Assembly: GCF_900141815.1 (NCBI RefSeq)
Contig: NZ_FQYR01000004.1
Coordinates: forward strand, 496,001 to 560,000
Reading direction: 5' to 3'
DNA length: 64,000 bases
Origin: Rubritalea squalenifaciens DSM 18772
Lineage (GTDB): Bacteria > Verrucomicrobiota > Verrucomicrobiia > Verrucomicrobiales > Akkermansiaceae
Within the stretch, counting starts at the first letter, position 1; every line of letters begins with the position of its first letter. The notes below the pieces were generated by a model, which saw nothing but the letters and a program-made list of their open reading frames with translations, searched no databases and was not told the origin of the DNA. The position numbers were made by a program, and so were the translations under genes. Shown piece by piece: positions 991 to 64,000 of this stretch.

Positions 991-3900
991 ATGAAAATAA
1001 AACACACACATTTGGTGGAGCCATTAGCTGCATTGGCAATGTGCTCCATGACTACAGGATTGTCTGCTGCTGACCCCTTTGAGGTCGTTATCATTCCGGA
1101 TAGTCAGCATTATTCGCATTTTATGGATGATGGTGGGCCGGATTTGTTTACCCATCAGACTTCCTGGATTCGCGATAATGTGACTAACAGTAACATCGCA
1201 TTCGTGACTCATGTGGGAGACGTGATTCATGATAATACCGGACTCTGGCCATATGCCAGTCAGGCCATGTCTCCTCTGGATGGAGCTGTTCCCTACAGCG
1301 TTACCTTCGGTAACCATGACAATGGTGAGCCCGGTCCATTTGCATCGAGCCGCTATCAATCGTACCCATGGTACATAGGTGCGAGTAGTGATAATCTGGC
1401 TCATGCCCAGACCTTCACGGCAGGAGGGATTACCTTTCTGCATATCAATGTACCACACGATGCGAACAATGCGCAGCTGACCTGGGCTCAGAGCATCATC
1501 ACGGCTAATCCAGGTAAGCCGACCATCATCACAACCCATGGCTATATGGCGGATAATACCTTTGGCCGTGCTACACGTGGTGAGAACATCTGGACGACTT
1601 TGGTGGAGCCTAATACGCAGGTGTTTATGACCTGTAATGGGCATGACTGGGTATCTCGTCACGAAGTGGATACTACGAATGACGGTAGAAAAATCCTCCA
1701 GATTCAGAGTAACTGGCAGCAAGTCATCAACGGTGGTAATGGCTTGTTACAGCGGGTTGTATTCGACCCAGATAATAGCAAGATCACGGTGAAGACCTAT
1801 TCGCCTTTCTTGGATTTATATCATACCGACTATTCGGGTGAGTTCAGTTACTCAGCCACAATGAGCAGTTCTGCGGTGGTGATTGGCAATGAACTGGGTG
1901 CGCCCAAGCGTACCTGGGATGATGGCGCCAAGAAAAACGACAACTGGCAAGACGCCGCAAACTGGGATGGTACTGCACCGTCTGCCGGGGATAGACTATT
2001 CTTTGGAGCGACTGGGAGTGGAAGCTCAGTGAATGACTTTACTGCGGGAACCGCATTCTCAGGAATCGTCTTCAATCCCGGGACTTTCTCTAACGGCTAC
2101 ACGCTTTCAGGAAATAAGGTCAACCTTACTGGGGACATCGTCAATATGGGAACCTATGGCTCCGGAGCAGGTTCCGGTCCAAAGATTAACTTTCCGATTG
2201 AGCTGATCGGTGACCGCCAGTTTAACACGGGTGACTGGGATATGACCGTGAATGGTGTAATCAGTGGCACTGGGTCACTGACTAAAACGCACGGACGAGA
2301 TTACTTTCGCGGGTCTTACGATGGCGGAGTCAACATTGGTGACCTGTATCTGACTCAGGTGAATACCTACACAGGTGACACCAGAGTGAGTGGCGGAGCG
2401 CTGATTCTGGACAACAATAGTTCGAATAACCTCATGCCCTCATCGCCCAATATCACATTGGATTTGAATGCGGTATTGAGAGTCGTTGACCTGCAGAATG
2501 GTACCTTTAACTTGGTCTCAGGCCAGACCCTTAGAGGGTCAGGAAAGGTCTCCGGTCATACCACGGCATCCAGTGGATCTACCCTGGCTCCGGGAAATGG
2601 TACTCAAACTGGACGCCTGAATCTATTTGGTGATTTGGCAATGAGTTCAGGTTCTTCATTGGATCTCGAGCTGGCAGGCAAGGATGATGGTAGTTATGAT
2701 CAAACCTCGATTCAGGGAACGGTGAATCTGGGGAGCGCTACCTTGAACCTCACCAGTCTTGCAGGCTATACACCAGCGATCGGTGATCAGTTGATCATTT
2801 TACAGAACGATGGAGTGGATGCGATTAGTGGAACCTTTACGAGTGGCAGTGGCTCCGACCTCACTCTGGGGACCGCGCTGGGTGAAGGTGTAGCAGTCAG
2901 CACCAATTTCCTGGGTAGTGGATACACCGCGCGTATCAGCTATGCGGGAGGCGATGGGAATGATGTGAGCATCGTTGTGCTTCCGCCTCCTGGAGCTCCA
3001 GTCTTTATCACTGATCCTATCGTGAAGACAGGAGCTGAACCTGGCACGGCCTTTGTTGCCTCTATTGCTGGCAGCTCTCTGGACGGTGACGGTGATACTC
3101 TAACCTACAGTAAGGTGAGTGGACCGTCTTGGTTGACTGTTTCTTCCAATGGCGATCTTTCGGGCACGCCTGGCGCTGGCGATGCTGGGACAAGCGTGCA
3201 GTTTACGGTACAAGTTTCCGATGGCAATGGAGGGAGTGATACGGCATTACTTCAGGTCGATGTTTTGCCTCTGGTTGGTCTTTGGAAGTTTGATGATCCG
3301 GCTGATTTAGCTAAAGCCAGTATCGGTCAGGACTTAGTGCTCACAGGAACAGATCAAGCTGTCGCAGGCTTTGATGCTGGTGATGGCGCCGCGAGAATTG
3401 GTGTGGGCAGTCATTATGCTCTTGCCAATACCATTGGAGCCAATGGTGGTGGTAGCTATACCAATGAATATACCTTGGTCTTTGATGTCAGCTATCCGGC
3501 CAGTAGCGAAAATAGCTGGATGAGTTTCTTCCAAACAGCACCTAACAATGGAAATGATGCGGACTGCTTTGTTCGCGGTTCTCAGGGAACGATTGGTGTT
3601 TCAGGCACTGGCTATAGTAGCTGGGTATTGCCTAAAGAGACCTGGGCTCGAATTTTTGTCAGTGTTGATAACGGTTCCTTCTATCGAATCTATGCCAATG
3701 GAAGTCAGATCCTTAATGGATCAATCCAGAGTGTGGATGGAACCTATGCGCTGGAGTCGACGCTTCTTCTGTTCGCAGATAACAATGGTGAAGATAACGC
3801 GATGGATGTGACCTCGGTGCGTCTGTTTGATCGTGCTTTGACTGCTGCTGAGTGTGCGGCTCTGGGTGGAGTGCCTAGTTCAACCAGCTCTTCGGACTCG

Positions 3901-55106: not shown

Positions 55107-58100
55107 ATGAAAAACACACTAAACCCACCTAGTAGTAGGAGGGGCTATCTCTTGTGTTGGATAGCTCTGCTTACTCTGACAGGAATTTGGAATACAGCCA
55201 AGGCTCAGCTCCCCGAGTCTTTTGTTGTCAACGTTGATAAGGGGGGAGGGCAGATCGTAGAGCTGAACCTGCATAAGCATTCAGTGAGATCGGCCAACTT
55301 CAGGGTGCAGTCCTGGGATACGGTGAATGGCTACGTGGAAGAACACACGGCCCAGAATCCCGCAATGCCCGTACGTACGTACCGTGGCTACGTCACGGAA
55401 AACCCGAACGAGCTGGTGACGGCTATCGTGGATACAAGTAATGAATTGCATGCCACGGTGCACAATGGTGCCGGTCGTATCTGGACGGTGGCGAACATAG
55501 ATGTGACCACGGAGATCGGCAACGGTACATCCATCACACCGCCTCCGGCTCCCTTAGCTACTGGTAGTGCTCCGGCTGGGGCTTTGCTTCCTCCAGTAGG
55601 TCTCTATAAAGCGCACGGTGTGTATGATGTGCCGAGCTCCCAGTACAAGGGATCCGTGGATGAGACGCTGGTTTACATCGAGTACCAGTGGAACGTTCAC
55701 GATTTCTTCAATACGAGGGACGCCAAACTCAACATGGAGCTTAGCGAGGTGATCATTCGGAAGGAACAGTTCTATACTCCAACCAGCGGAAATGCCGGTC
55801 AGTTCAGTTCCATGCTGAGGTCCGAGTGGCTTGCCCAAGGGCAAAATGAGCGTGGTTATATTTGCAGTTTCTTCCCCTCTGGCTTCACCTTTGCGGGTGG
55901 CTACGCTAGTGGTAACAATTTCTATAATCCGGGCGGCGAGGCCGTGGCAGTAAATGCCCTCTACCACGAGGTAGCTCACAACTGGCGCGCTCAGCACTAC
56001 TACTATGGTAAGGACACCATGTCTGGCTCTCACCCGGCTCACGGTGAGATGAATACCATGCGTATTCTAACAAAGAGGCAGCAGGAGATTGATGAAGGTG
56101 ATCTGCAGCTTACACCTTCCTACGCGACGAACATGCACCCGCGTGCTTTTCTGGATCTCGCCTCTACCGCGGTGAATACCGCGGTAAACATCGACCCACT
56201 GGCCAATGACTGGGATGCCAACGGCGATGCTATTTCTCTCAAGTACTATACCGCTAATACCGTGCAAGGTGGTACCGTGACCGAGTCCGGCGGAATGCTG
56301 ACCTACACTCCTGCTGCCGCTTATGTGGGCAAGGACGTGATTGTCTACGAAGTACAGGATACAGCAGGCCTTTACACCCAGGGGCTGATCCATATCGAGG
56401 TAATCAACCAGGGGCTTGCGGCTCACTGGGCAATGGAGGAGACCTCTGGAACAAACGCAGCGGATGGCAGTGGCCATGGGCATGACGGCTACCTAGTCGG
56501 TGTCGACTTCGGCGCGAACACCATTGATGGTCCTGTGGGCAAGGCCCTGCAGCTGGACAGAGGTAGTTACATCGTAGCTGATGCTACAGACCTGATTGCG
56601 GAGCCTGAGACTTACTATCCGTTAGAAAATGCAGCGAGTAATTTCTTTGACCCTATGGATCAGAGCTTCACGGCGACATGCTGGTTCAAGCTGGATAATT
56701 CCGGCGACACGGCCATCCTGATGAGCAAGCGAAATCCGGGCTTCTTCGGCTACCATCTGGTGGCCAGCCCAAGTGGACTCTCCGCCACCGTACGAGCCTG
56801 GGATGGAGACATCGGCTGGCAGACGGTATCCAGCGGCGCTCTGGTGAGTGATGCCTGGTACCATGCGGCGATGGTGATCAACCGTTCCGACAACACCCTG
56901 CGCCTTTACCTCAACGGCCAAGAAGTGGGGACAGCGGCTAGCCTGCCTGCAGACCTTTTCATTTTCAATGGACGTGAGGACTTGAAGCTGGGCGGCGACG
57001 CTGCAGTAGCCCTAGACGAGGCTCAAGTATATACCAAGGCTCTCAGCCTTTCAGAAGTACAGGCCTTGCACGATGCGGGTGAAGTGCCGGCAGCTCCGGT
57101 TTTCCCTGCAAATGATTCCCTGAACATAGCGGTGAACGGTACCGTACTCTCCTGGCTTGCCGGTAACAGCAGCTACCAGCACGATGTGTACTTCGGTACT
57201 GATGCAGCTGCTGTGGCCAATGCCACCACTGCCTCTCCAGAGTATCAGGGCCGCCAAAGTGCGACCAGTTTTGATCCTGGTACGCTGGACCTTTCCAAGA
57301 ATTACTTCTGGAGGATCGACGAGGTGGACGGCTCCACCATCATTGGTGGCGGTGTATGGAAATTCAGCACCGCTGCGAACTCCTTGGCATCTGGCATGGT
57401 GCTTCATCTTTCCATGGATGACTCTGATGTACAGACAGCCAACGGCACCATCCACACCTATGATGATACCGCGCTGCCAGCGCAGGATTTCCAAGTGATC
57501 AATACCCCGTCAACCATCGCAGGTGTAATTGGTGATGCGATTGATCTTAGCGGGGCTGACGATGCACTGCGTTCTTACATAGCAAGCCCTGTGAAGAAGC
57601 CCAGATCCGGCGGAGTATCCGTATCCTTCTGGCTGAATACGAGCTCCACACAGAACAGTGGAGAGAAGGTCTACGATATAGGCGGCGCGTATTTCATGCG
57701 TTACTATAATGGTGACCTTCAGCCTGTCTATGATGGTAGCACAGGGGGGGCAGTCGTGTTTGACACGAACCTCAACGACGGCCAGTGGCACCACGTGGCT
57801 GTGATCAACAACGGTGCGGGTCAAACCACGCTCTACATCGATGGTGCCCAGTTCGGCACACAGTCTGAGAGCCTCTATGATGTGGCTTCCCTGCAAAGAA
57901 CGGTATCTATCGGCGCAATCTACAATGGTACTTCTGAGAATATTGAGGCGGCTTATGATGACTTTGCTGTGTGGGAGAGAGAGCTCTCTGGCCCGGAAGT
58001 CAGTGATATCTATACAGAGGGTTTGTTAGGTAATTCAGTGAATGCTGAGCCTGTGTTAGTGGACACCAGCTTTGAAGTTGCTGACGGCTTCACAGGCTTC

Positions 58101-61100
58101 CCGAGCGGTGGCACTGGCAGCGTCGGTACCGTAGTGGATAACGACGGGGTGACTTGGACGGAGGTGACCGATGTGAAGATCTGGAACAGGACGGACATTC
58201 CTCCGGCAGGAGTGCAGACACTTACCCTCGGACTGAGTTCTTCCAACCCGATCTGTGATGTTAGCATTCCGGGGGCCGATCACGGTATTGGAACAGTCAG
58301 CTTCGACTACGCCGCTTTCTCTTCCTCCACGAACACGGAGTTCAGCGTGCAATATAATGCGGGCAGCGGTTGGGTAGAAGTATGGTCCACACAGATGGTG
58401 GGATTGGACCCTAATTTCTCCACTAAGCCATGGAGAACCGTGGAGCTGGCGCTCAATGTGCCAGGCGACGTGGCCCTACGATTCGAAGCCCTTGGCAGCA
58501 AGGGGCCAATGATCGATAATCTGCGCATCACAGGCGTGAGTGTCTCTAACCTCGCACCTGTAGTGAACGACCAGACATTCTCTGTGGCTGAGAATGCAGT
58601 CGCTGGTATTTCTGCTGGAACAGTCGCAGCAAGTGATCCTGATGCGGGAGATGCCCTGAGCTACGCCATCACCGCAGGTAATGCGGGTGGTGAGTTTGCC
58701 ATCAATGGCAGTACTGGAGAAATTACCACTACGACGGTACTCGATTACGAGACGACTAACAGCTACGGCTTTACGGTCACCGTGACGGATGCTGGCGGTC
58801 TGACAGATACGGCGCTTATCACCGTGGACGTTACGAATGTGAATGAGGCCCCAACAGCTGTCGAAGCGAGTGGCAGTGTGGCAGAGAACAGTGCCGTAGG
58901 CACTACTGTGGCCACTGTGACATCCACTGACCCTGATGCTGGAGACAGCGTTACTTACGTCATTACTGCGGGTAATACGGGCTCCGCCTTTACGATCGAT
59001 GGTAACACCGGCGCGGTCAGCACCAATGCCGTGCTGAACTACGAGGTGGCCAGTAATTATCAGCTTGCCGTGACGGCAACAGACGCAGGAGGTCTCTCCG
59101 ATACCGTTTCCGTTAGTGTCAGCGTGATTGATGTGAACGAGGCTCCGACAGCAGCAAACGGCAGTGGTAGCATTGCTGAAGATGCGACCGTTGGCTCCAC
59201 AGTGACTACCGTTTCTGCCAGTGACTCGGATGCCGGGGATACCCTGAGCTACTCCATTACTGGCGGGAATACGGGCGGTGCATTCCTCGTAAACAGTTCC
59301 ACAGGAGTGATCACCACGGCTGCTTCGCTAGATCATGAGTCTAATAGTAGTTATACACTCACGGTGAGCGTGACCGATGCCGGAGGATTATCCGACACAG
59401 CGGCTGTGAATGTGACTGTGAGCGATGTGAATGAAGCTCCTGTTGCCAGTAATGGCAGTGGTAGTATCAATGAAGATGCTGCTGTGGGTAGCACCGTGCT
59501 TACAGTGGCTGCCAGCGACCCTGATGCCGGAGATACACTCACCTATGCTATCACGGCAGGTAATGCTGGCGGGGAATTCTCTATCAATGCCAGCACGGGT
59601 GAAATTACCACTGCTACGGAGCTCGACTTCGAAAGCACCGCTGGCTACAGCCTGACTGTTAGTTCTACGGATGCAGGCGGACTGAGTGACAGCGCGACCA
59701 TTGCTGTAACTGTAAACGATGTGAATGAGGATCCTGTTTTTGCCAATGATCCTATCACTGGAGATAACGCGATTCTTTATGCCGAATACAGTGGCACCCT
59801 AGATGGTGAGGCTACGGATCCGGACACGGCAGACACCGTGACCTATTCCAAAGTAAGCGGTCCAGCATGGCTGAGCGTCGCCTCAGACGGTACATTGTCC
59901 GGTACTCCAGGTGATGGAGATGAAGGGCTAAACAGCTTCGAGGTAGAAGCCGCAGATGGTAACGGCGGCTCTGCGCAGGCTACACTAGAGATCATGGTCG
60001 CTACCAGTGGCGTGGTGTACTCCGATGACTTCGAGGACTACGATATCGAGAACCCATCCGACTTCTCCGTGGGAGGTGTCGTGACTGGAAACTGGGTAGC
60101 CAGCAATACGGCATCCAATGCTACTCGTACCTTTAGCACCACTAATTTCGGAGGCACGCGTCTTTGGATTAGTAATGTGGACGGAACGAGTATCACCAGT
60201 AATGGTATTCAGGTCGGTAACGCCAACTACACGATGTCTGTGGTGATGGTCACCGAAACTGCCACCGCTGGCCGCCAGTTGAATGCGACCTACGATATCC
60301 TAGCCGGGCAGACCGCTGCCACAGCGACAAGTATCATCGGTGGACCACAGGCAGTGGTTACGGATGGTGACAGCTGGAGCATTGATGATTCCAAGACAGA
60401 CCATGTCTACACCGAAAGCTTCAGCACTGCCGGTCTGGCACAGGGAGATAAGCTCTTCCTGCGCTTCGAACGTGTCAGTGTAGCCGCGAACGGCGGATGG
60501 TTTGGTGTGGATGATGTTAAGCTGGAACTGGATGGCATGAACACGGCTCCAGTGCTTGGCGATGCTAGCTTCTCCGTAGACGAGAATGGAGCGGGTGCCC
60601 TAGTGGGTACAGTCACCGCGACGGATGCGGATGCCGGGGATATCTTGAGCTACGCCATTACCGCAGGTAATGCGGGTGGTGAGTTTGCCATCAATGGCAG
60701 CACTGGAGAAATCACCACCACCACTGCACTCGATTACGAGACTGCTGGCCAGTACGTGCTGACCGTGGAAGTGACGGATGCCGGCCTTCTTAGCGATACA
60801 GCAAGCATCACGGTGAACGTCAATGACGTCAACGAAGCTCCTGTGGCCAATGATGTAAGCGGATCTGTCTCTGAAGATGCTGCAGTAGGTAGCGCTGTGG
60901 TCGCCGTGACCTCAAGTGATGTGGATGCGGGCGACAGTGCAAGCTATGCTATCACCAGTGGTAACGTTGGAGGAGCTTTCTCCATCGATAGCACGACAGG
61001 TGAGATTACCACCGCTGCTGCCCTCGACTACGAGGTGACTACTTCCTACTTGCTGACGGTCAGTGTCACCGATGGAGGTGGACTCACGGACACGGCCTTG

Positions 61101-61589
61101 GTGGATATCACCGTGATTGATGTTGCTGATGTGGTTAGCACCTATAGCAGTGATGCCGAGCTGGTTGTTTCAGGGCTCCTGTTCTCAGGAAACTACTTGG
61201 ATACGGTAAGCTCTAACAATGTGTATGAAGTGCTTCAGGAGGAGAAGACTTCAGGCAAGCCCAGTACACGAGTCTCCAGCTTGGAGCACACCTGGAGCTT
61301 CGACATCGGAGCAGCTGGTGCCCTGGTGGAGCTGAGTGTGGAAGCCTACCATAGTTCCAATAATGAGGGTGATGACTTCGTCTTCGGGTACTCTACGGAT
61401 GGTATCGTCTTTACCGACGTGATCACCGTGACCAAGACCTCGGATGATAATACCGCGCAGGTTGCTATGCTTCCAGCGGATATCAGTGGAACCGTCTACA
61501 TTCGAGTGAAGGACACCGACCGCACCGTGGGCAACGGATCCCAGGACACCATCAGCATTGATCAGCTCAAGCTGGAAGTGACCCGCTAG
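55107..61589 (+). CDS. Giant secreted metzincin-like metalloprotease with LamG, cadherin-like and Ig-like repeats
   Basis: 2160 residues with a signal peptide (LLTLTGIWNTAKAQL). The metal site YHEVAHNWRAQH (His287, His291, His297) fits HExxHxxxxxH; Arg replaces the conserved Gly of classical metzincins. DTMSGS may be the Met-turn. After it come a cadherin/Ig-like module (~350-430), LamG-like domains (~435-650 and ~755-970), four cadherin-like repeats (~1150-1548, each with the ASDPDAGDxLxYAIT pattern), an Ig-like module (near 1550-1635), a beta domain, two more cadherin-like repeats (~1812-2010) and a C-terminal beta domain. No sorting tail is visible. It probably degrades or binds proteins or glycans outside the cell. 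Confidence 0.85.
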   Translation: MKNTLNPPSSRRGYLLCWIALLTLTGIWNTAKAQLPESFVVNVDKGGGQIVELNLHKHSVRSANFRVQSWDTVNGYVEEHTAQNPAMPVRTYRGYVTENPNELVTAIVDTSNELHATVHNGAGRIWTVANIDVTTEIGNGTSITPPPAPLATGSAPAGALLPPVGLYKAHGVYDVPSSQYKGSVDETLVYIEYQWNVHDFFNTRDAKLNMELSEVIIRKEQFYTPTSGNAGQFSSMLRSEWLAQGQNERGYICSFFPSGFTFAGGYASGNNFYNPGGEAVAVNALYHEVAHNWRAQHYYYGKDTMSGSHPAHGEMNTMRILTKRQQEIDEGDLQLTPSYATNMHPRAFLDLASTAVNTAVNIDPLANDWDANGDAISLKYYTANTVQGGTVTESGGMLTYTPAAAYVGKDVIVYEVQDTAGLYTQGLIHIEVINQGLAAHWAMEETSGTNAADGSGHGHDGYLVGVDFGANTIDGPVGKALQLDRGSYIVADATDLIAEPETYYPLENAASNFFDPMDQSFTATCWFKLDNSGDTAILMSKRNPGFFGYHLVASPSGLSATVRAWDGDIGWQTVSSGALVSDAWYHAAMVINRSDNTLRLYLNGQEVGTAASLPADLFIFNGREDLKLGGDAAVALDEAQVYTKALSLSEVQALHDAGEVPAAPVFPANDSLNIAVNGTVLSWLAGNSSYQHDVYFGTDAAAVANATTASPEYQGRQSATSFDPGTLDLSKNYFWRIDEVDGSTIIGGGVWKFSTAANSLASGMVLHLSMDDSDVQTANGTIHTYDDTALPAQDFQVINTPSTIAGVIGDAIDLSGADDALRSYIASPVKKPRSGGVSVSFWLNTSSTQNSGEKVYDIGGAYFMRYYNGDLQPVYDGSTGGAVVFDTNLNDGQWHHVAVINNGAGQTTLYIDGAQFGTQSESLYDVASLQRTVSIGAIYNGTSENIEAAYDDFAVWERELSGPEVSDIYTEGLLGNSVNAEPVLVDTSFEVADGFTGFPSGGTGSVGTVVDNDGVTWTEVTDVKIWNRTDIPPAGVQTLTLGLSSSNPICDVSIPGADHGIGTVSFDYAAFSSSTNTEFSVQYNAGSGWVEVWSTQMVGLDPNFSTKPWRTVELALNVPGDVALRFEALGSKGPMIDNLRITGVSVSNLAPVVNDQTFSVAENAVAGISAGTVAASDPDAGDALSYAITAGNAGGEFAINGSTGEITTTTVLDYETTNSYGFTVTVTDAGGLTDTALITVDVTNVNEAPTAVEASGSVAENSAVGTTVATVTSTDPDAGDSVTYVITAGNTGSAFTIDGNTGAVSTNAVLNYEVASNYQLAVTATDAGGLSDTVSVSVSVIDVNEAPTAANGSGSIAEDATVGSTVTTVSASDSDAGDTLSYSITGGNTGGAFLVNSSTGVITTAASLDHESNSSYTLTVSVTDAGGLSDTAAVNVTVSDVNEAPVASNGSGSINEDAAVGSTVLTVAASDPDAGDTLTYAITAGNAGGEFSINASTGEITTATELDFESTAGYSLTVSSTDAGGLSDSATIAVTVNDVNEDPVFANDPITGDNAILYAEYSGTLDGEATDPDTADTVTYSKVSGPAWLSVASDGTLSGTPGDGDEGLNSFEVEAADGNGGSAQATLEIMVATSGVVYSDDFEDYDIENPSDFSVGGVVTGNWVASNTASNATRTFSTTNFGGTRLWISNVDGTSITSNGIQVGNANYTMSVVMVTETATAGRQLNATYDILAGQTAATATSIIGGPQAVVTDGDSWSIDDSKTDHVYTESFSTAGLAQGDKLFLRFERVSVAANGGWFGVDDVKLELDGMNTAPVLGDASFSVDENGAGALVGTVTATDADAGDILSYAITAGNAGGEFAINGSTGEITTTTALDYETAGQYVLTVEVTDAGLLSDTASITVNVNDVNEAPVANDVSGSVSEDAAVGSAVVAVTSSDVDAGDSASYAITSGNVGGAFSIDSTTGEITTAAALDYEVTTSYLLTVSVTDGGGLTDTALVDITVIDVADVVSTYSSDAELVVSGLLFSGNYLDTVSSNNVYEVLQEEKTSGKPSTRVSSLEHTWSFDIGAAGALVELSVEAYHSSNNEGDDFVFGYSTDGIVFTDVITVTKTSDDNTAQVAMLPADISGTVYIRVKDTDRTVGNGSQDTISIDQLKLEVTR
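58661..58752 (+). repeat. Near-identical 92-bp cadherin-repeat segment, copy 1
   Basis: Encodes part of the first cadherin-like repeat. It matches 60650-60741 with only a handful of differences (mostly silent), although the repeats lie about 2 kb apart and other repeats in the gene have diverged much more. Points to recent duplication or gene conversion. Confidence 0.75.
60650..60741 (+). repeat. Near-identical 92-bp cadherin-repeat segment, copy 2
   Basis: Second copy of the segment at 58661-58752, in the fifth cadherin-like repeat. Confidence 0.75.
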
Positions 61590-61647: not shown

Positions 61648-61693
61648 GTGGGCATAGGTGAGTAGCGTTAGATCTCCAAAAGGTATAAGCTCC

Positions 61694-61734
61694 AAAAACA
61701 ACTCACCCGAGGTCTACGTGCAGAACTCGGGTGA
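61694..61734 (-). terminator. Terminator of the truncated tRNA-Phe
   Basis: On the minus strand, a perfect 9-bp stem TCACCCGAG (61734-61726) and CTCGGGTGA (61711-61703), followed by GTTGTTTTTGG. It starts two bases after the CCA of the tRNA fragment, so it is the native tRNA terminator. Confidence 0.75.
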
Positions 61735-61735
61735 A

Positions 61736-61780
61736 TGGTGGCTCATCTCGGATTCGAACCAAGGACACACGGATTTTCAA
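61736..61780 (-). tRNA. Truncated tRNA-Phe (GAA), 3' half only; probable attachment-site remnant
   Basis: The minus strand holds the anticodon loop TTGAAAA, a variable loop, a T-arm (CTTGG / TTCGAAT / CCGAG) with GTTCGAATCC, the acceptor 3' strand ATGAGCC, discriminator A and an encoded CCA at 61738-61736. The matching 5' half (acceptor GGCTCAT, D-arm, anticodon 5' stem) is not present to the right within any plausible distance. A tRNA fragment from the anticodon loop to CCA is the standard scar left by integrative elements at a tRNA attachment site. Confidence 0.78.
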
Positions 61781-61931
61781 ATTGATGCCAGCTTTCCGGA
61801 GTTTAACGAACCTTGATGAAATAACGGCTCTGAGGGTAGATGGACTAAAAAGTGTTCCTATGTTTGGGCTCATTTACAGAACTGCGGTGGTCAACTGGAG
61901 GTGGTCAATAAGAGAGCTTCGAACATAGTGC
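61781..61931. other. Non-coding junction next to the tRNA fragment
   Basis: No gene or tRNA 5' half. A 9-bp direct repeat GGTGGTCAA occurs at 61886-61894 and 61900-61908. If the tRNA fragment is an att site, this is the first DNA of the element. Confidence 0.4.
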
Positions 61932-62108
61932 CTAATTTGTAGACGTCTCCTCAAGAATTATGTCGTCGTCGCTGGTGGCGCCGTCGGGGCCAAGGGAGCG
62001 GTTGGCGTCTCTGGGGACTTGTTTCATGACGGCAGCCCATTTTGCCCCAGTAGGAAGGGCTTCGGGACGTTTGACGAAGGCTTCCAGTAAGGCGCAATAG
62101 AACATCAT
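61932..62108 (-). CDS. Small ORF coupled to the DUF3299-NicO gene
   Basis: 58 residues (MMFYCALLEAFVKRPEALP at the start), beginning at an ATG that overlaps the upstream TGA as ATGA. A soluble, mixed-charge small protein ending in an acidic tail. I recognise no family. The 4-bp overlap suggests it is a translated partner rather than a chance frame. Confidence 0.45.
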   Translation of the reverse strand: MMFYCALLEAFVKRPEALPTGAKWAAVMKQVPRDANRSLGPDGATSDDDIILEETSTN

Positions 62109-63634
62109 CTGAAGGTTTCGAATGTAGTACAAGTGAGAACGAAGAGTGTGCAGCCAATCATCAGGATAGCAGCGGCTCCTGCGATTCGTGCTCTTCTGGA
62201 AAAGCGTTTCGTAACTCCTTCGCTTGTCTTGAGATCAAGGGCTTGCCGTCCTAGCAGGGCCAGTACGCCGATACCGCTCATCGCCACCGCCATGCCGGCG
62301 GAAATGGCTGCCACCAGAAGAATCGCGGTACCCAGAAGGTTGTTAGCCATGCCGAAGAGCAAAACTAGCAGTGCTCCGGTGCAGGGAACCGAGCCGACGG
62401 CTAGTGCGAGCCAGCCCGCTGCCCCTTGGTTTTTCTCAACGGCGGCGCAGGTCTTGCAGCCATCGTGATGGTGATGGTGATCGTCCTGCGAATGTTTCGA
62501 CGCACGTAGCGCTTTCCACAACATCCAAGCTCCGATCACAGCGATGAAGGCGTAGCTAGCGAGTTTTACCGCACGATAGTCTGAAGGTGCGGCTCCCGTC
62601 GTTTGACGTACGGCGAAGTCCATAAGCCAGACAACCATGACAGCTGAGAAAACATGAAAAATTGCAATCCTGGTGCCCATCGTTACGCCGCGTTTCAGGC
62701 TTCCGCCTTCGCCGACAAAGTAGGAAATCACCACAGCCTTTCCGTGTCCGGGTCCGAGTGTGTGGACAAGTCCATAGAGAAAGGAAACTAGCAAGCCCCA
62801 CCACAACGGTCCGGAGGAATCCCTGTCGCGGATCGAGGTCATGGTTTTGGTGAACATGAGCGCCACCCGAATTTGGAGGGCCTCAAACCAGCTGTGCTCG
62901 TCGCCGATCTCAGGTGCTTCGACTTTGGCAAGGATATCAGAGTCATCGGGTGAATAGTCCGAGAGCCGATCGGTGGTCATGGAAAAGGAGACCTTCACCC
63001 GGGCACTGCCATCGACGAGGAAGAGGTCGTATTCCTCAGGCTTCAATTCAAGCTTCCCCTCGAGCCAGAGAGCTGCGAAACGACCACGATCTTTGGTGCC
63101 TCCTGGCACGGTCACATGGATCATCTGATTTGGCGGTGGTGGTGGTGTGTGAACGCAGGCGCCGACCCAGGGAACGAGAAGAAATTCCATGATCCCACTC
63201 TCGTCACTACGAAGCGGAAGCATGTAGCCGGGTATCCGAATCTCTTGCCCGACCAAAGACTCATCGACCTGCGTCATGCGTCGTTCCCGTCTACGGGTTA
63301 CGCGCTCGCGTTGTGATAGAATCCAATCCACGTCGATGCCGACTTCGGCGAACTCTGCGATTATCGTCTCGACCTGTTTCGCGGTCGCTCCGTCAGAGGG
63401 GATGGCATCCTTTTCTCGAAGACGCCGGAAGCGCGCGACCCGACTAAGATCTAACAACTGTTCTTCGCTGAGCTTTGCGAAAGGATCATCGAAGGGCTCC
63501 TCTGACTCGGGCAGCAGTTGCTCCCACGAGGTTTCCTTAGGTGTTGGCTCCTGAGCCGTGGCAGTGCTGGCCACCAGCACCAGCGCCAGTGTTATCCAGA
63601 TTGGACAAATCAGCGATTGGGAGAACGAAACCAT
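62105..63634 (-). CDS. DUF3299-NicO fusion membrane protein with a His-rich loop
   Basis: 509 residues. A signal peptide (ALVLVASTATAQEP) and a charged linker are followed by a periplasmic DUF3299 domain near residues 130-225 (IPGYMLPLRSD, GACVHTPPPPPNQMI). Then a NicO/RcnA-type metal-transporter domain with about six membrane segments contains YGLVHTLGPGHGKAVVISYF and AVGSVPCTGALLVLLFG. Between membrane segments is a His-rich loop (DDHHHHHDGCKTC), as in Ni2+/Co2+ export or handling proteins. The metal is not decided by the sequence. It overlaps the upstream partial gene by 25 bp and the small ORF by 4 bp. Confidence 0.85.
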   Translation of the reverse strand: MVSFSQSLICPIWITLALVLVASTATAQEPTPKETSWEQLLPESEEPFDDPFAKLSEEQLLDLSRVARFRRLREKDAIPSDGATAKQVETIIAEFAEVGIDVDWILSQRERVTRRRERRMTQVDESLVGQEIRIPGYMLPLRSDESGIMEFLLVPWVGACVHTPPPPPNQMIHVTVPGGTKDRGRFAALWLEGKLELKPEEYDLFLVDGSARVKVSFSMTTDRLSDYSPDDSDILAKVEAPEIGDEHSWFEALQIRVALMFTKTMTSIRDRDSSGPLWWGLLVSFLYGLVHTLGPGHGKAVVISYFVGEGGSLKRGVTMGTRIAIFHVFSAVMVVWLMDFAVRQTTGAAPSDYRAVKLASYAFIAVIGAWMLWKALRASKHSQDDHHHHHDGCKTCAAVEKNQGAAGWLALAVGSVPCTGALLVLLFGMANNLLGTAILLVAAISAGMAVAMSGIGVLALLGRQALDLKTSEGVTKRFSRRARIAGAAAILMIGCTLFVLTCTTFETFR

Positions 63635-63999
63635 CCGAATGCGGCGATGATGTTGAGCAAAGTTCCGTAGGTGTTGATGGCTACCCCAACCCCCCAGGCC
63701 GTTAGGGAGGCGTATCGGGCGAGCCCCTCTAACGCTAAGGACAGGATATTTCCAATCACGCCGCCACCGCCAAAGATCAGTAAGGCAGGGATCATGGCGA
63801 TGCGGTAGAACTTGATGTGTCCAAAGCGGGGCAGAAACAGGCAGCAGGAATACACGGCGAAGGCAGAGAGCGAGAAGACCACCGGGGCGGCGCTGAGGCC
63901 GGTGCCAGTGGACGATTTGAGATACCCGCTAATCAGCAGATAAGTGATCGAAGCTACTGAATACAAGGCCTGCAGCAAAAGCAGCCATTTCAGCTCGAG
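63610..63999 (-). CDS. Membrane protein, 5' end outside the window
   Basis: The frame is open to the right edge of the window (read LELKWLLLLQ at its limit), so the start lies beyond it. The visible ~130 residues have about four membrane segments (for example ALYSVASITYLLISGY, AAPVVFSLSAFAVYSCC, ALLIFGGGGVIGNILSLAL and GVAINTYGTLLNIIAAF) and a basic end. No family recognised. It overlaps the DUF3299-NicO start by 25 bp, implying one operon. Confidence 0.65.
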   Translation of the reverse strand, partial: LELKWLLLLQALYSVASITYLLISGYLKSSTGTGLSAAPVVFSLSAFAVYSCCLFLPRFGHIKFYRIAMIPALLIFGGGGVIGNILSLALEGLARYASLTAWGVGVAINTYGTLLNIIAAFGWFRSPNR

Positions 64000-64000
64000 T

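Follow-up and report, generated by a model that had tools for sequence, protein, structure and literature searches.

A displaced tRNA-Phe 3′ end marks a recombinase-free island in Rubritalea squalenifaciens, with the tip of an ISL3-type insertion sequence from a clade frequently found behind tRNA genes

In this study, we examined a 64,000-nucleotide stretch of the Rubritalea squalenifaciens genome (the window; contig C4:496001-560000 of genome G000) and related an orphan tRNA-Phe fragment near its right end to the chromosome beyond. Very probably, this locus is the tRNA-Phe integration scar of a 5.6-kb element whose recombinase was lost or acted in trans, followed by a later insertion of a tRNA-homing ISL3 insertion sequence. 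The island itself is ordinary; of greater consequence is the tip of the insertion sequence at its edge, which belongs to a clade repeatedly positioned behind tRNA 3′ ends.

The displaced tRNA-Phe end and its direct repeat

The features of the locus within the window are as follows.

61692..61735, minus strand: intrinsic terminator after the displaced fragment, from fold and repeat; a second copy lies behind the intact tRNA
61736..61780, minus strand: tRNA-Phe 3′ part, displaced, from nt 32 through CCA; forms the island's distal end; from sequence and identity with intact C4:563332-563407
61781..64000, no strand: left part of the island, from direct-repeat geometry; continues to C4:563376 (nt 32 of the intact tRNA-Phe), 5,596 bp in total
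62105..63634, minus strand: cargo gene, fusion of DUF3299 and NicO (nickel/cobalt transporter-like), 509 aa; Pfam PF11736 and PF03824
63610..64000, minus strand: cargo open reading frame, 145 aa in full (L007 4610-5047, exceeding the window end); no Pfam or NCBIfam match

A preliminary description had reported a 45-bp stretch from anticodon loop to CCA on the minus strand, and its position and length are borne out by the sequence: TTGAAAATCCGTGTGTCCTTGGTTCGAATCCGAGATGAGCCACCA, read on the minus strand from 61780 to 61736, runs from the anticodon loop (GAA, hence Phe) through CCA, with the 5′ half absent. The right limit given there, 61931, has no meaning in the sequence. ARAGORN called no tRNA in the whole window and Rfam at its gathering threshold returned no match; a relaxed Rfam scan matched a tRNA weakly at 61739-61812, with 18.7 bits versus a gathering score of 29. 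Here and at the other loci we recognised tRNA fragments by eye and by pattern; covariance models are poor at half tRNAs. The terminator hairpin at 61692-61735 (−21.1 kcal/mol, z −4.5) is followed by GUUUUU. The same description had read this terminator as the native one, marking the original downstream side; it is indeed present, but with a terminator in both repeat copies, each of which folds, it does not tell which side is native. Immediately to the left of the scar, at window 55107-61589, lies a gene for a 2160-aa protein with many cadherin/Ig-like repeats.

A search of its own genome with the orphan stretch gave a second copy at C4:563296-563376, aligned over 81 of 91 query bases (98%, E 1e-33). 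At that place it supplies the 3′ end of a complete tRNA-Phe (C4:563332-563407). This gene lies beyond the window to the right on the same strand as the orphan, shares its 45-nt 3′ end as had been anticipated, and is the sole tRNA-Phe among the 41 tRNA matches of the genome. Together the two copies form a direct repeat of about 89 bp (L007 2692-2780 and 8288-8376, where L007 is C4:555001-575000 and window positions are L007 + 59000), with a start-to-start spacing of 5,596 bp. Between copies the 45 nt of tRNA are identical and the terminator shows a few changes. Integrases are known to cross over within tRNA genes at the anticodon loop, the T loop and the T/acceptor junction (PMC4383910), and the repeat begins at tRNA nt 32, the first base of the anticodon loop. 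Thus two elements of the Islander definition are present, an intact tRNA with a correctly oriented cognate displaced fragment and a crossover at a known subsite, and the island DNA lies between the copies, to the right of 61781, where the element had been proposed. In two congeners (G005 and G010) tRNA-Phe lies near the same upstream gene, parB, and is followed by neither orphan nor cargo; the genes downstream are not common to the window. To the left of the orphan, comparison with relatives revealed no conserved neighbours, so no empty site was identified.

Cargo, recombinase and related scars

From orphan to tRNA-Phe, the island holds a short remnant, the DUF3299-NicO gene, the 145-aa reading frame, a split amidohydrolase, a second amidohydrolase and 400 bp of debris that terminates in the insertion-sequence tip. 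The remnant beside the orphan (76 aa, L007 about 2934-3165) is unmatched in Pfam, NCBIfam and plasmids. The first amidohydrolase gene (L007 5040-6414) is interrupted by a frameshift, unless this is an assembly error, and the second resembles Xaa-Pro dipeptidases, with an NCBIfam match below its cut-off. The G+C content of the island is 53%, versus 51-52% in its surroundings. Among 58 sampled genomes the DUF3299-NicO protein was matched in three, namely its own (two copies) and, weakly and in the DUF3299 part only, two congeners; the full fusion thus occurs in its own genome and is not matched in full in any of the other 57. A scan of the genome collection added one good relative, on a contig of an uncultured member of Verrucomicrobiales (L142), and one partial N-terminal match. 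Since the uncultured contig carries a similar cluster of a transporter and two amidohydrolases in a tRNA-free vicinity, the cargo is not tied to tRNAs.

The tyrosine recombinase that had been expected to the right of the window is absent. Annotation of the island's proteins revealed no recombinase, none of the five PF00589 matches of the genome lies within 150 kb of the island, and no integrase remnant was found in it with three integrases of related islands as queries. The island is therefore decayed or non-autonomous, and as the Islander definition includes an integrase gene inside, it is to be regarded as a relic or cargo-only form rather than a complete member of that type.

Three further scars with the same anatomy are present in this genome, those at tRNA-Arg and tRNA-Met found in a survey of up to 20 kb downstream of each of the 41 tRNA matches.

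C5:104842-111111 (L098 4842-11111): tRNA-Thr(TGT) island, 6.2 kb; orphan and terminator 64 bp, 98%
C2:1097589-1100830: tRNA-Arg(CCG) island, 3.1 kb; repeat 89 bp, 90%
C3:99548-120494: tRNA-Met(CAT) island, 20.8 kb; repeat 93 bp, 99%

The crossover lies in the anticodon arm for Phe, Met and Arg and in the T loop for Thr, both of them sites at which tyrosine integrases are known to act (PMC4383910). The tRNA-Thr island lacks an integrase and carries the second DUF3299-NicO copy, 60% identical to that of the tRNA-Phe island and adjoined by an amidohydrolase; related cargo has thus entered this genome at two different tRNAs. Just three genes, matching PADLOC Hp1-Hp2-Hp3, make up the tRNA-Arg island. 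As the T stems of its two repeat copies differ by changes that preserve pairing, their sequences suggest that the halves derive from different hosts. The tRNA-Met island contains genes that by eye resemble restriction-modification genes, and its orphan adjoins a weak PF00589 match below the Pfam cut-off. At all four scars the repeat extends past the tRNA into the sequence behind it, which includes a strong terminator for Phe, Thr and Met, so that the integrase-less cargo islands of this genome carry more than a tRNA 3′ end.

The same tRNA-Phe site is occupied in a sister-genus genome (G022) by an 8.2-kb island (L090/L048, C1:440943-449258) that likewise shows an anticodon-arm crossover and a displaced fragment on the far side. 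In contrast to the island studied here, it holds a PF00589 integrase, adjoining the orphan, together with a primase and unrelated cargo; moreover, the terminator that follows its orphan is missing behind its intact tRNA, whereas here both copies have one. Taken together, the anatomy shared with the Thr, Arg and Met scars and the integrase-bearing island of the sister genus identify the tRNA-Phe scar as an ordinary trace of integration, left by an element that at present lacks an integrase. It resembles Islander-type islands in being marked by a restored tRNA and a displaced 3′ fragment and in the use of an anticodon- or T-loop crossover, and differs from them in lacking the required integrase gene, in the terminator inside its repeat and in its size of only 5.6 kb (PMC4383910). 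Tycheposons are also cargo islands bordered by tRNA genes, but they carry a tyrosine recombinase (PMC10872708), and none was found in the tRNA-Phe island.

An ISL3 clade positioned behind tRNA genes

Directly behind the terminator of the intact tRNA-Phe lies GGGTCTACACCAAAGTTTG with about 90 bp of sequence also present, in the same genome, behind the genes for tRNA-Val, tRNA-Gln and tRNA-Ser. The recurrent stretch comes from the right end of an insertion sequence of the ISL3 family; its reading frame ends in the transposase C-terminus.

C4:563201-563288, minus strand: ISL3-type tip behind tRNA-Phe, at the tRNA-proximal end of the island, beyond the window
C5:281884-281971; C3:83868-83957; C4:354472-354561; C8:14305-14323; C3:180599-180617: other ISL3-type tips in the genome

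Allowing up to three mismatches, all six tips of the genome lie 43-202 nt behind tRNA 3′ ends in one orientation. Three of the remnants, at C5, C3 and C4:563201, sit at different tRNAs and break within a few bases of one point, inside the final transposase codons, so that the end of about 90 bp looks like a unit in its own right; a fourth runs about 50 bp further.

A full-length transposase is found in a congener (G002). The PF01610 (DDE_Tnp_ISL3) domain that defines the family scores 216 bits there (locus L041) and 201 bits in a second element (L174), compared with 25.5 bits for the remnant in the genome under study (C4:354421-354489). Where both ends could be located (L041 and L174), the element is about 1.27 kb long, with a single transposase reading frame and imperfect inverted ends. 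Exact 8-bp target duplications flank two copies (GAAAGAAC in L174; ATAAGAAA in L183), again as in the ISL3 family, and none was seen in L041. The TnsB/TnsC/TniQ gene set of Tn7-like elements and CASTs is absent from the L041 and L174 elements. In L041 (2150-3726), an orphan tRNA-Tyr 3′ fragment with its terminator lies between the full ISL3 element and a tyrosine integrase.

Beyond this genome, the exact tip is present in 17 of 387 genomes of the order. Among the matches listed, 25 of 28 distinct loci have a tRNA sequence ending 2-223 nt before the tip, a tRNA gene at 18 and a 3′ fragment, judged from the sequence, at 7, and at some of the 28 several tips are stacked at a single spot. A test independent of the tip used the G002 transposase as query against 384 genomes of the class, with locus lists comprising the best 30 matches. 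Among these, 18 of the 23 clade transposases with a readable downstream end face a tRNA 3′ end or fragment in one orientation; the tRNAs faced are Lys, Gly, Ser, Thr, Gln, Val, Leu, Asn, Arg and Tyr, and the transposase ends 94-423 nt from the intact ones. The chance of such a count under random placement is about 1e-41, for matches that are not fully independent. As a control, 30 PF01610 transposases were sampled across the phylum (21-32% identical to the query), and a tRNA was found at one of the 26 with enough sequence. The four distant matches of the G002 search all lacked a tRNA, and a tree separates the tRNA-facing clade from other ISL3 transposases (99/98).

We therefore consider it likely that this class contains a single-gene ISL3 clade that homes to the immediate 3′ flank of tRNA genes, across many isoacceptors and in a single orientation, by which it differs from the other ISL3 elements sampled. 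Its transposase, alone or with a host factor, would recognise the 3′ half of the tRNA gene or something bound there, and the element would insert close behind it, at a distance that varies but with its orientation fixed. Tips also adjoin fragments that lack a 5′ half; targeting may therefore need neither the 5′ half nor the promoter, although an insertion sequence older than its island would give the same picture.

Proposed history, alternatives and implications

Regarding the order of events, we infer that a crossover of the tyrosine-integrase type, within the 7-nt anticodon loop, joined the 5′ half of the host gene to a 3′ half borne by the element. The element would also have supplied a terminator copy, so that the sole tRNA-Phe gene was made whole again, transcription end included, while the host's own 3′ half and terminator would have been displaced to the far side of the island. 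Presumably the recombinase was lost or the element was mobilised in trans. Later, an ISL3 insertion sequence of the tRNA-homing clade would have inserted behind the restored terminator, of which about 90 bp of the right end are left.

It is quite unlikely that the 89 bp were instead copied by recombination or repair, as a local duplication or gene conversion, with ordinary chromosomal genes in the 5.6 kb between. The absence of a recombinase from the island and its host-like G+C would fit such an event, and a recent duplication could also have left two almost identical terminators. However, the repeat starts exactly at the anticodon loop, a known integrase crossover subsite (PMC4383910), the same anatomy recurs at three other tRNAs at anticodon or T-loop positions, and the DUF3299-NicO fusion is absent from the other relatives sampled. 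We rejected the ISL3 element as maker of the island, that is, the possibility that, sitting behind tRNA-Phe, it used one-ended or adjacent transposition to carry the tRNA 3′ end together with the terminator to a new place, because the tRNA-Phe orphan and the Thr, Arg and Met repeats have no insertion-sequence tip. That origin appears highly improbable even though a tip marks the tRNA-proximal end of the island and tRNA 3′ fragments adjoin tips elsewhere (7 of 28, among the matches listed); the orphan fragment in G002 with an insertion sequence beside it also adjoins a tyrosine integrase.

For the positions of the tips, survival bias would offer an account without targeting, in that intragenic insertions are purged, and mobile elements are known to find a safe haven beside tRNA genes (PMC11406308). 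Against it stand the single fixed orientation, the stacking of tips at the same spot and the difference between this clade and the other ISL3 elements of the phylum (18 of 23 versus 1 of 26, among the matches listed); we thus regard this explanation as unlikely, and homing to tRNA 3′ flanks as the better reading.

In the open-access literature searched we found no account of ISL3 elements targeting tRNAs or of this clade's preference for tRNA 3′ flanks, and a large survey of insertion-sequence neighbours does not mention tRNA (PMC9208149). Bacterial transposition directed to tRNAs has been described for Tn7-like elements, which employ several proteins (PMC11406308). Like Tn7-like elements and CASTs with tRNA attachment sites, the clade would direct DDE-type transposition to tRNA genes; unlike them, with their TniQ/TnsD or guide RNAs, it consists of about 1.3 kb with one transposase gene (PMC11406308).

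In conclusion, if our reading is true, a single 350-aa transposase that finds tRNA genes would provide a simple and testable targeting system. The tRNA-homing ISL3 clade would then be the bacterial equivalent, built on one protein, of the Ty elements of yeast and the TRE elements of Dictyostelium.
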